From: Halorussus marinus
GTDB taxonomy: Archaea > Halobacteriota > Halobacteria > Halobacteriales > Haladaptataceae
Direction: 5' to 3'
Assembly (NCBI RefSeq): GCF_004765795.1
Contig: NZ_SBIV01000002.1
Location: 310,001-374,000, forward strand
Length of the DNA: 64,000 bases
Shown here: positions 30,460 through 49,829 of the stretch, piece after piece
Layout: each line of letters starts with the position of its first letter
Numbering within the stretch: the stretch's first letter is position 1
The notes under the pieces: model-generated
The model's database searches: none
Told to the model about the DNA's origin: nothing
What the model saw: the letters and a program-made list of their open reading frames with translations, nothing else
Made by a program: the position numbers and the translations under genes

Positions 30460-31164
30460 TCAGTCGTTCGGATATGCCTTCTCGAACGGGTCGGGGGGCA
30501 ACAGGAGGTCGCCGAGTTCGGGCATGTGTTTCACGTTGAACAGCACTTTCAGCTCGTCGGTGATGGGCATCCCGTTGCACGACAGCCGGATGCCCCGCTC
30601 CATCAAATCGGACGGGAGGACGTGACTGGAGGGCATCGAGAGTTCGCCGTCGACGAGCTTGATCGCGCAGTTGGCGCACGCCCCGCCCCGGCAGGCGAAC
30701 GGCCAGGCGTAGCCGTCCGCCTCGGCGGCTTCGAGGAGCGACTCCCCGGGTTCGACCGCAAAGCGCCCGTAATCGTCGTCGTCGAGCCCCGCGTCGCCCG
30801 CCTTCTCGAAGAGGTCCTCGTCGTCGGTCTCCCACCCGAAGTCCGCGAGGACGTCGTAGTTGAGGTAGGTGACCTCCGAGTAGGCACGCTCGGGCTCTCC
30901 GCGGGGGGCGTCGCCCGGGGGTTCGGACTCGGCGCCGGGGTCAGGATCGGCGCCGGGGTCGGGTGCGGGCGAGGAATCGGGCGGCCGACCGTCCTCGACG
31001 TAGCCGGCCTTGATCCGCTCGTAGGCGGTCCGGACCGCCTGAAACTCCTCGACCGACCCGCCCTGATCCGGATGAGCTTCCTTCACGCGTTCGCGGTACG
31101 CCCGCTCTATCTCCGCCTCCTCGGCGTCTGTGTCGACGCGTAACACGTCGAACGGGGACTGCAT
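30460..31164 (-). CDS. J-domain fused to halobacterial-type [2Fe-2S] ferredoxin
   Basis: A 234-residue fusion. Residues 3-55 are a J-domain with the HPD motif at 31-33. A Pro/Asp/Ala-rich linker spans 56-95. Residues 96-220 match the large halobacterial [2Fe-2S] ferredoxin, including its acidic insertion (VTYLNYDVLADFGW, then DLFEKAGDAGLDDDDYG). Cluster ligands are C158, C163 and C166 (CRGGACANC) and C196. The J-domain would recruit DnaK, so a role in redox-linked protein folding or Fe-S delivery is plausible but inferred. ATG at 31164 overlaps the upstream gene's stop (TGATG), yet it also has its own TATA box (31189-31196). Confidence 0.9.
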   Translation of the reverse strand: MQSPFDVLRVDTDAEEAEIERAYRERVKEAHPDQGGSVEEFQAVRTAYERIKAGYVEDGRPPDSSPAPDPGADPDPGAESEPPGDAPRGEPERAYSEVTYLNYDVLADFGWETDDEDLFEKAGDAGLDDDDYGRFAVEPGESLLEAAEADGYAWPFACRGGACANCAIKLVDGELSMPSSHVLPSDLMERGIRLSCNGMPITDELKVLFNVKHMPELGDLLLPPDPFEKAYPND

Positions 31165-31673
31165 CACCTGACGCTAGCGAAATCCCAGACATAAGTCTTG
31201 GCTTCGGTGTGGAGTCGACCGGTAGTTCGGGGCAGATTCGCGACCGGCGGCTCGCTCGCGACGTTCGCGGAGACGGGGTCAGTTCGTCGGACCCGCGTGG
31301 ACGCTTCGGTGAGCCCCGCGACCAAGAGCCACCGCGAACCCGATTCGGCGCGCCTGTCGGCGACCTCACGCCGAGGACCCGGACGGTTCTCGTGCTTTCC
31401 ACGAAGCGTAGAGGCCGCGAAAGAGCATCCGAGAAACCCGACCAACAGCAACACGGCACCGATCGAGCCGAGCGGTCGAGGCAGTGCGACGAGGGTGCCC
31501 GCTTCGAGTCCGAGCAGAACCTCGTATCCCAGCCAACAGCAGAACGCCGGGAAAACGTAACGCTCGCTCCCGTTCGTCTCGGCTACCCTCGAACTGATTC
31601 CGACCAGCAGAATGCCGAACAGCGGGATGGCAATATCGACGACGTATCCCTCTCCACCGAGCCACTCGATCAT
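31164..31673 (-). CDS. Small membrane protein upstream of the J-ferredoxin gene
   Basis: A 169-residue protein with three hydrophobic segments (about 10-30, 40-55 and 65-85) and a basic, less ordered C-terminal half. I do not recognise the family. Support for it being real: a TATA box (31699-31707) about 30 bp before the ATG at 31673, good codon bias in the first half, and a stop codon overlapping the next start by one base (TGATG). Against it: the last 40 codons overlie the promoter of the J-ferredoxin gene and look less protein-like. Base composition is somewhat more AT-rich than its neighbours. Confidence 0.5.
   Translation of the reverse strand: MIEWLGGEGYVVDIAIPLFGILLVGISSRVAETNGSERYVFPAFCCWLGYEVLLGLEAGTLVALPRPLGSIGAVLLLVGFLGCSFAASTLRGKHENRPGPRREVADRRAESGSRWLLVAGLTEASTRVRRTDPVSANVASEPPVANLPRTTGRLHTEAKTYVWDFASVR
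31189..31196 (-). promoter_or_regulatory. TATA box of the J-domain-ferredoxin gene
   Basis: ACTTATGT on the minus strand, centred about 28 bp before the ATG at 31164; a leaderless internal promoter inside the preceding reading frame. Confidence 0.5.
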
Positions 31674-48489: not shown

Positions 48490-49101
48490 TCACCGAGCCG
48501 TCCGTCGCACCCCGCCACGGCGCTCGTACTCGATCCGGGTCGCCATCTCCTCGGCCGTCTCCGGCCCGCAGAGCCGTTCGACGAGGTGGAGCGCCAGATC
48601 GAGCCCGGAGGTGACCCCGCCCGCGGTCAGCACGTCGCCGTCGTCGACCACGCGGGCGTCCGCGACCTCGGCGTCTGTCTCCCGGAGGTCGTCGATCGCG
48701 CTGGCGTGGGTGACCGCCGGCCGGCCGTCGAGGATCCCCGCCTCGGCCAACAGCATGCCGCCGGTGCAGACCGCCGCGAGTTCGACGCCCGAGGCGTGGA
48801 GGTCCGCGAGCGCGTCGGGGAGGTCGCCCTTTTCGGCCTCGGCCCGCGCGCTCGCGTCCGAGCGGTCGTTCCACCCGCCGCCCGGCACCACGACGACGTC
48901 GGGGTCGGCGTCGGCGAGCGTCCCGTCGACCCCGATCCGGAGGCCGTGGGCCGCAGTCACGTCGTCGGTCGGGTCGAGCGCGACCAGCGACACCGCGAGG
49001 TCACACCCGGCGTCGGCGGCGGCCGACAGCACCTCGTAGGGACCCACGGCGTCGAGTTCGTCGAAGCCGTCGTAAACGACGACCGCGATTTCGGTTGGCA
49101 T
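48490..49101 (-). CDS. DJ-1/PfpI family protein
   Basis: A 203-residue class I glutamine-amidotransferase-like protein of the DJ-1/PfpI superfamily. The nucleophile elbow AAVCTGGMLLAEAG places Cys112 correctly, with the conserved acidic residue in GFDELDAVGPYEV (near 15-16). Relatives include isocyanide hydratases and AraC-type regulators' ligand domains as well as glyoxalase III/deglycase proteins. The sequence looks most like the InhA/ThiJ branch, but the reaction is uncertain. ATG at 49101 (MPTEIAVVVYDG). Divergent from the membrane ferredoxin gene. Confidence 0.87.
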   Translation of the reverse strand: MPTEIAVVVYDGFDELDAVGPYEVLSAAADAGCDLAVSLVALDPTDDVTAAHGLRIGVDGTLADADPDVVVVPGGGWNDRSDASARAEAEKGDLPDALADLHASGVELAAVCTGGMLLAEAGILDGRPAVTHASAIDDLRETDAEVADARVVDDGDVLTAGGVTSGLDLALHLVERLCGPETAEEMATRIEYERRGGVRRTAR

Positions 49102-49221
49102 GGCGGATCGCTGGGCCGCTGCGGGCAAAAGCGTGTGGTTTACGGAAACTCGATGCCGGCACCGACGCCCCGCCCCGAGCTGTCGAGGGGCAGGTCGCCG
49201 GCCGGCGAGCAATCACAATGC

Positions 49222-49229
49222 TGTTAAAC
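49222..49229 (+). promoter_or_regulatory. TATA box of the membrane ferredoxin gene
   Basis: TGTTAAAC, centred about 25 bp before the ATG at 49251; leaderless promoter. Confidence 0.55.
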
Positions 49230-49250
49230 CAGTGTTCCGTAGCCCCGCGC

Positions 49251-49829
49251 ATGGTAGACGCACTGGGTCTGGGTCTCGGAGTCACGATGCTCCTCATCGT
49301 GGTGGCCCTTCACTTCTCGAGGGGAACCGAGTGGACGCCCGGCGAAGACATCTCCAAAGAGGTGCTCGAACGCCGCGCTTCGACCGTGCCGGAGACCGAC
49401 TTCCCCGAGCCGATGAACCGCTCGATCGGCGGCGGTGGCGGCGCAGTCGCGGTCGGCGGCGGCGCCGAGGGCGAACTCGCGGGCGACGAGGAGGACGAAG
49501 ACGAAGGATTCGACCCCGACGCCATCGCCGACGACGAGGTCGAGTACTACGAGATCGAGTTCGTCAACGAGGGCGAGACCATCGAGGTCGCCAACAACGA
49601 GAGCCTCCTCGACGCGGGCGAAGACGAGGGCTGGGACCTGCCCTACGCGTGTCGGCAGGGCCAGTGTCTCTCCTGTGGCGGGAAGGTCGCGGACGGCGAC
49701 GCCCACGAGTACGTCCGTCACACCAACAACGAGACGCTCGCCGCCGACGAGGTCGAAAAGGGGTACGTCCTCACCTGTACCGCCCACCCGACCGACGACT
49801 TCAGCCTCGAAACCAACGAGACGCCCTGA
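49251..49829 (+). CDS. Membrane-anchored [2Fe-2S] ferredoxin
   Basis: A 192-residue protein: one N-terminal helix (4-21), a polar stretch, a Gly/Ala/Val-rich spacer (59-76) running into an acidic run (79-96), then a plant-type ferredoxin domain (about 97-185). Cluster ligands are C134, C139 and C142 (CRQGQCLSC) and C176 (LTCTAHP). It probably passes single electrons at the inner face of the membrane; the partner enzyme is unknown. ATG at 49251 is supported by a leaderless TATA box. It differs from the soluble halobacterial ferredoxin in lacking the large acidic insertion. Confidence 0.9.
   Translation: MVDALGLGLGVTMLLIVVALHFSRGTEWTPGEDISKEVLERRASTVPETDFPEPMNRSIGGGGGAVAVGGGAEGELAGDEEDEDEGFDPDAIADDEVEYYEIEFVNEGETIEVANNESLLDAGEDEGWDLPYACRQGQCLSCGGKVADGDAHEYVRHTNNETLAADEVEKGYVLTCTAHPTDDFSLETNETP

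Follow-up and report, generated by a model that had tools for sequence, protein, structure and literature searches.

A J-domain fused to a haloarchaeal-type [2Fe-2S] ferredoxin in Halobacteria, and its possible role beside DnaK

Known J-domain/ferredoxin proteins and the haloarchaeal fusion

The closest described relatives of the protein treated here are the DnaJ-Fer fusions. The accessible part of a 2012 survey reports them from Viridiplantae and Thaumarchaeota, gives their ferredoxin a CXXCXXC motif, and mentions Halobacteria only for DnaK, DnaJ and GrpE (PMC3564930). For the Chlamydomonas members CDJ3 and CDJ4, the accessible parts of three papers give an interaction with HSP70B and an ability to bind a [Fe4S4] cluster (PMC3564930, PMC6006212, PMC9407819), and the chloroplast J-proteins DJA5/6 are described, in equally partial text, as supplying iron to SUF. 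In the haloarchaeal literature, HVO_2995 is the [2Fe-2S] ferredoxin Fdx (PMC8305020), and hvo_1040, a DnaJ-domain gene, adjoins an insertion linked to hypochlorite tolerance in Haloferax volcanii (PMC6267482). A description of a haloarchaeal J-ferredoxin fusion was not found in the open-access literature that we searched.

HscB/Jac1 and Pam18 are class C (type III) J-proteins, whose specificity comes from an unrelated domain joined to the J-domain; in HscB the C-terminal domain is the part that binds IscU. The fusion follows the same plan with a ferredoxin as its partner, and the HscB domain has no match in it (Pfam up to E 1). The window, the whole 64,000-nucleotide stretch of Halorussus marinus DNA analyzed here, carries the following features of interest.

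30460..31164, minus strand: J-domain/[2Fe-2S] ferredoxin fusion gene (open reading frame, translation, Pfam and NCBIfam matches)
30997..31164, minus strand: J-domain, residues 1-56, with helices at 4-8, 16-30 and 38-52 (Pfam DnaJ E 1.2e-9; model)
31066..31074, minus strand: HPD motif, residues 31-33 (present in 45/45 fusions)
30880..30996, minus strand: variable linker rich in Pro, Asp and Glu, about residues 57-95 (pLDDT, dN, length spread)
30499..30879, minus strand: haloarchaeal [2Fe-2S] ferredoxin domain, residues 96-222 (NF041393 165.4 bits; 1doi Z 19.0)
30667..30693, minus strand: cluster loop C158-R-G-G-A-C163-A-N-C166 (cysteines in 45/45)
30577..30579, minus strand: fourth cluster cysteine, C196 (45/45)
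30463..30513, minus strand: C-terminal LxLPPxPF tail and end, residues 218-234 (conservation in 45 fusions)
31174..31196, minus strand: promoter-like region, with TATA-like ACTTATG (31196-31190) and CTAG (31177-31174)

The DnaJ-Fer proteins of plants, green algae (CDJ3-5) and Thaumarchaeota resemble the haloarchaeal fusion in having a J-domain followed by a ferredoxin in one polypeptide, and the accessible text on the thaumarchaeal ones also puts 54-92 residues of variable sequence between the domains (PMC3564930). They differ in the ferredoxin. Theirs is of the CXXCXXC kind, whereas the haloarchaeal fusion has a plant-type [2Fe-2S] domain (PF00111, NF041393) with the pattern C-x4-C-x2-C...C. 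Since the type of ferredoxin is different, we infer that the haloarchaeal fusion apparently originated independently of the plant and thaumarchaeal DnaJ-Fer.

The frame runs from 31164 to 30460 with the stop included, which agrees with the coordinates 30460-31164 given by an earlier sequence-only reading, and encodes 234 amino acids from its ATG; a GTG start 3 bases upstream would make 235. Pfam places DnaJ on residues 4-49 (38.6 bits, cut-off 27.8) and Fer2 on residues 134-197 (E 1.2e-12, 48 bits, cut-off 21). Nothing beyond these two appears up to E 1, including the zinc-finger and C-terminal domains of DnaJ. The predicted full-length model, made from an 8-sequence alignment (mean pLDDT 75.0), has three J helices, a low-confidence stretch and a ferredoxin domain. 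Conservation was judged on 46 loci, which give 45 distinct fusion proteins; most of these come from the top of the score range, which leaves distant relatives under-sampled. The HPD motif and the C-x4-C-x2-C...C pattern are kept in all 45, which argues that the fusion is not an accident. Chance, or two overlapping reading frames, is excluded by the single stop-free frame, the same layout in 45/45 relatives, and purifying selection. The sequence-only reading had claimed an intact J-domain joined to a haloarchaeal-type [2Fe-2S] ferredoxin with all four cluster cysteines. Both parts of that claim held: Pfam, NCBIfam, alignment to solved sequences, the models and the 45/45 conservation back the first, and C158, C163, C166 and C196 are all there.

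The J-domain was modeled separately because comparison of the full model with the PDB covered residues 94-219 alone. Residues 1-58 by themselves reach a pLDDT of 91.3. The 50 PDB matches listed for them mostly carry J-domain or DnaJ titles (TMq 0.66-0.84, prob 0.99-1.00) and include 5nro_B, a DnaK-bound J-domain (prob 1.00), with all 50 at E >0.01 and 0 at E <= 0.001, weak values that go with the short query. Helix II has the form A-Y-R-x-R, with A22 in 45/45 fusions, Y23 in 43/45, R24 in 45/45 and R26 in 44/45. On sequence and model together, the protein is a class C J-domain (Hsp40) protein: it passes the Pfam cut-off, has the HPD and the J fold, and is without the zinc-finger and C-terminal domain. 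The host genome has one DnaK match, adjoining a DnaJ. Given this single DnaK, and that A-Y-R-x-R and HPD are kept, it is reasonable to think that the fusion would bring a redox centre to DnaK. There are six J-domain places in this genome in total, one of them below the cut-off. Three host proteins (L105, L107, L108) carry short C-terminal J-domains of HPDxGG type; among the three own-genome J-domains compared, that of DnaJ included, the nearest to that of the fusion is the C-terminus of the L105 protein, with 26/47 residues identical.

The region between the domains behaves very differently. Residues 59-92 fall below pLDDT 50 in the full-length model, and the length of the linker ranges from 16 to 78 residues across the fusions, with borders set by script. 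Its dN is above that of both flanking domains in 7/7 close pairs. In the same pairs dN/dS is about 0.04-0.22 for either domain, compared with about 0.3-0.8 for the linker. By these rates both domains are under purifying selection and the linker is far less constrained.

The ferredoxin domain and its other partners

The NCBIfam equivalog NF041393 (ferredoxin Fer) matches residues 97-219 above its cut-off of 150 bits. Among solved sequences the nearest are the Halobacterium ferredoxin 1e0z (E 1.9e-41) and the Haloarcula ferredoxin 1doi (E 3.1e-37); the alignment covers residues 3-123 of those chains, halophilic insert included. The nearest structure to the modeled domain is again 1doi, with an rmsd of 2.0 over 126 residues. 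The domain thus shares with haloarchaeal Fdx (1doi, 1e0z) the fold, the halophilic insert and the four cysteines.

The sequence-only reading described this part as the ferredoxin that otherwise serves halophiles as a major soluble electron carrier. The haloarchaeal type stands; the part is not simply that carrier. The domain lies in a separate clade, is less acidic (mean charge -16 in J fusions vs -25 in standalone ferredoxins), and has an altered loop, an extra C-terminal tail and a J-domain ahead of it. Mean identity is 0.65 within the J fusions and 0.86 within the standalone ferredoxins, and it is 0.50 between them. The host genome also retains a separate standalone ferredoxin, which is further evidence against a simple equation of the two. 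In the loop, position 160 is Gly in 45/45 J fusions and Ala in 31/31 standalone ferredoxins compared, a count made without L096 and L101, which are divergent standalone rows. In the tail, L220 and L222 are kept in 45/45 J fusions and P223 and F227 in 44/45; the 31/31 standalone proteins have a gap at both P223 and F227. A Foldseek match, 7akt, is a Chlamydomonas ferredoxin variant titled A39G_A41V, whose position 39 we take to correspond to G160. A literature search on the redox meaning of the G160 substitution found nothing.

We built a tree of 102 ferredoxin domains (45 from J fusions, 20 from fusions with a region resembling a helix-turn-helix (HTH), 33 standalone, 3 fused to universal stress protein (USP) domains and 1 to a kinase) on 133 columns, which are few for that number of rows. 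All 45 J-fusion domains form one clade (support 98/91), outside the clade of the free-standing carrier. The 20 HTH-like-fusion domains form their own clade (100/98), sister to the J-fusion clade, and the two together split from the standalone, USP-fused and kinase-fused domains (100/99).

The HTH-like fusions (L095 2485-3285 (-) and L112-L131) occur near full length in 20/382 genomes. In common with the J fusion they have the sister ferredoxin clade, the CRGGAC loop (19/20, so that Gly stands at position 160 in 19/20) and the LxLP tail (20/20). They differ in having an N-terminal region that is weakly HTH-like, its Pfam HTH matches lying below their cut-offs, where the J fusion has its J-domain. 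That both a chaperone helper and an HTH-like region carry such a ferredoxin speaks for a sensor or an adaptor more than for a carrier.

The ferredoxin has further partners. Tandem universal stress protein domains precede a haloarchaeal ferredoxin in the protein of Natrialba magadii pNMAG01 (L094, 1572-2819 (+), WP_004214312.1), as read by Pfam, and in L093 and L100, as read from the sequence. These proteins belong to the family of genomes that we call f4, and of the three genomes read, one (L093, genome G045) also has the J fusion. An ORF of 713 amino acids at L099 657-2798 (+) matches a Ser/Thr kinase, a winged helix and the haloarchaeal ferredoxin; the annotation at that place (NZ_CP044130.1 81893-82297) is a sole 135-codon 'ferredoxin Fer'. 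The window itself holds a second Fer2 protein at 49095-49829 (+), which looks hydrophobic near its N-terminus and has a linker rich in Gly; it may be a ferredoxin anchored in the membrane. We consider it possible, though doubtful, that the haloarchaeal [2Fe-2S] ferredoxin is a general C-terminal sensing module, carried by a DnaK co-chaperone, HTH-like proteins, tandem USP proteins and a winged-helix Ser/Thr kinase, of which the J version would be a redox-gated co-chaperone. If this were true, the J version would couple the ferredoxin pool, or the integrity of the cluster, to DnaK.

Distribution, neighbors and upstream region

A protein search of 391 genomes of the class Halobacteria gave a match in 391/391; two genomes stand lowest, with best matches of E 2.1e-9 and 1.3e-5. 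The best E-values separate into one group at 1.4e-46 and stronger and another at 5.5e-44 and weaker, and we set the border for presence of the fusion in the narrow gap between them, at E 1e-45. By this score threshold the fusion is counted in 279/391 genomes and lacking from 112. A few genomes may be misclassed, because the gap is narrow and because at L097 the best stretch spans residues 90-234 only, with the J part as a separate match. Among the matches listed in this search, all begin within query residues 1-3 and finish within 225-234. Named carriers include Halorussus, Halomicrococcus, Haloprofundus, Halobaculum, Halocatena and Haloferax larsenii; in family f4 the fusion is present in 20/101 genomes. 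Outside the class, 23 of 163 genomes of the same phylum have matches, none stronger than E 4e-6, so there is no comparable match among them. In the viral contigs scanned, 0/9 candidate stretches encode a relative of the fusion. The sequence-only reading had said that the family appears in annotations. This holds only loosely: each of the 11 plasmid records with at least 80% coverage of the fusion query is called plain 'ferredoxin Fer'.

The neighborhood gives no function. In 27 loci, the window included, no gene cluster besides the fusion occurs in more than 7, and that one lies at scattered distances. The MatE gene of the window recurs in 3/27.

The upstream region is more regular. ACTTATG lies about 30 bases and CTAG about 13 bases before the ATG. 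Across 45 loci the AT content upstream of the fusions peaks at 0.87 about 30 bases before the start. CTA[GC] begins between -25 and -5 in 34/45 fusion upstreams vs 5.5% of random 24-base windows, and CTAG in 24/45 vs 0.7%, counts that are inflated by the kinship of the 45 loci. CTAG is strongly depleted in the loci examined, with 247 found vs about 2348 expected from base composition. It may be that the CTAG element is only the AT-rich -10 promoter element known from haloarchaea, in a strong form. These signals suggest that the fusion has its own promoter, with a transcript start very near the ATG. A look for a regulon defined by CGCTAG-N5-9-RTG led to none: the pattern has 34 genome matches, some of them double readings, vs 408 and 405 for the reversed-pattern control. 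In 30 loci with the pattern, only two sites besides the fusion (L141/L142 and L144) have, by eye, a TATA-like stretch before an ORF of more than 200 amino acids, and there is no common theme among them.

What the fusion may do

We tentatively favor, at somewhat under even odds, an accessory class C co-chaperone of DnaK in which the ferredoxin is a redox-responsive or partner-selecting module. The J-domain would recruit the DnaK of the cell and stimulate its ATPase. The flexible linker would hold the C-terminal [2Fe-2S] domain, which is related to the carrier ferredoxins yet split from them, and which would no longer be mainly a bulk electron carrier but would set the time or place of DnaK action. 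Most probably, the surface or fold of the ferredoxin would change with the oxidation state of the cluster, or when the cluster is lost in oxidant or iron stress, and this change would in turn switch the choice of client or partner. The absence of the fusion from 112/391 genomes fits an accessory role. Several points count against this explanation. The J-domain of the host DnaJ is identical to that of the fusion at only 18/45 positions, and among the 27 loci there is no conserved neighbor that points to stress or redox. The below-cut-off HTH matches of the sister family and the few columns of the tree also weaken it.

The strongest alternative, which we regard as less probable than the redox-responsive co-chaperone and on balance unlikely, is a targeting adaptor that does no sensing. 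Here the ferredoxin would dock on ferredoxin-dependent enzymes or on the Suf machinery, and the J-domain would bring DnaK for the maturation or repair of Fe-S proteins. HscB works with HscA in just such maturation, and the fusion would be its counterpart with an unrelated docking domain. The chloroplast precedents, DJA5/6 and CDJ3/4, tie J-proteins to Fe-S work in what is accessible of those reports. Residues around the cluster loop and at the C-terminal end have diverged with the core kept, and SufB/D is present in 20/20 genomes checked. In the host a SufB/SufD-type pair lies at G000:C1:340189-342110 and a further SufB-like gene at G000:C5:101958-102662. However, 13 of the 112 genomes that lack the fusion were checked, and all retain SufB/D and DnaK; the protein is therefore not a core factor, and Fe-S loading is unlikely to depend on it. 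That no gene cluster recurs beside the fusion in more than 7 of 27 loci also weighs against the adaptor. It is just as plausible that G160 and the tail adjust the transfer of electrons to some new partner, and they do not distinguish sensor from adaptor. Between sensing and docking, the evidence leans slightly to sensing, on the basis of the 13 checked genomes and of the sister ferredoxin clade carried by an HTH-like region.

An improbable alternative is a dedicated, tethered electron carrier, in which the ferredoxin would feed a particular enzyme and the J-domain would mainly localize it or keep that enzyme folded. In its favor, the four cysteines and the fold are kept, and in Haloprofundus sp. 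MHR1 (L168 3001-5438) the fusion is followed by genes for a Rieske protein and an FAD-dependent oxidoreductase. The same pair is found in L031. Among the loci examined, however, L168 and L031 are the only two with both genes, a Rieske-like match alone occurring in L092, which is an HTH-like fusion locus. The lower constraint, in mean identity, on the fused domain than on the carrier also argues against a tethered carrier, and the kept HPD would be left unexplained. The weakest idea, that the ferredoxin is a structural relic for client binding or solubility whose cluster is not functionally needed, would suit the wide drift outside the core, but it is very improbable given cysteines in 45/45 proteins and a ferredoxin dN/dS of about 0.07-0.22 in 7/7 pairs.

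If the accessory co-chaperone is the right reading, the redox state of the cell may steer protein repair through this fusion. The layout of J-domain and ferredoxin was already known; what is new is the haloarchaeal version with a [2Fe-2S] ferredoxin, which is widespread in Halobacteria and, in the records examined, hidden under the name 'ferredoxin Fer'. Two different ferredoxins, a CXXCXXC one (plants, Thaumarchaeota) and a [2Fe-2S] one (haloarchaea), have apparently been joined to J-domains separately, which argues that placing an Fe-S cluster at Hsp70 brings a benefit of its own. The fusions with HTH-like, USP and kinase parts point to a possible further use of the ferredoxin as a sensor domain. 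The class Halobacteria includes genetically tractable members, so the role of the J-ferredoxin fusions is directly testable there.
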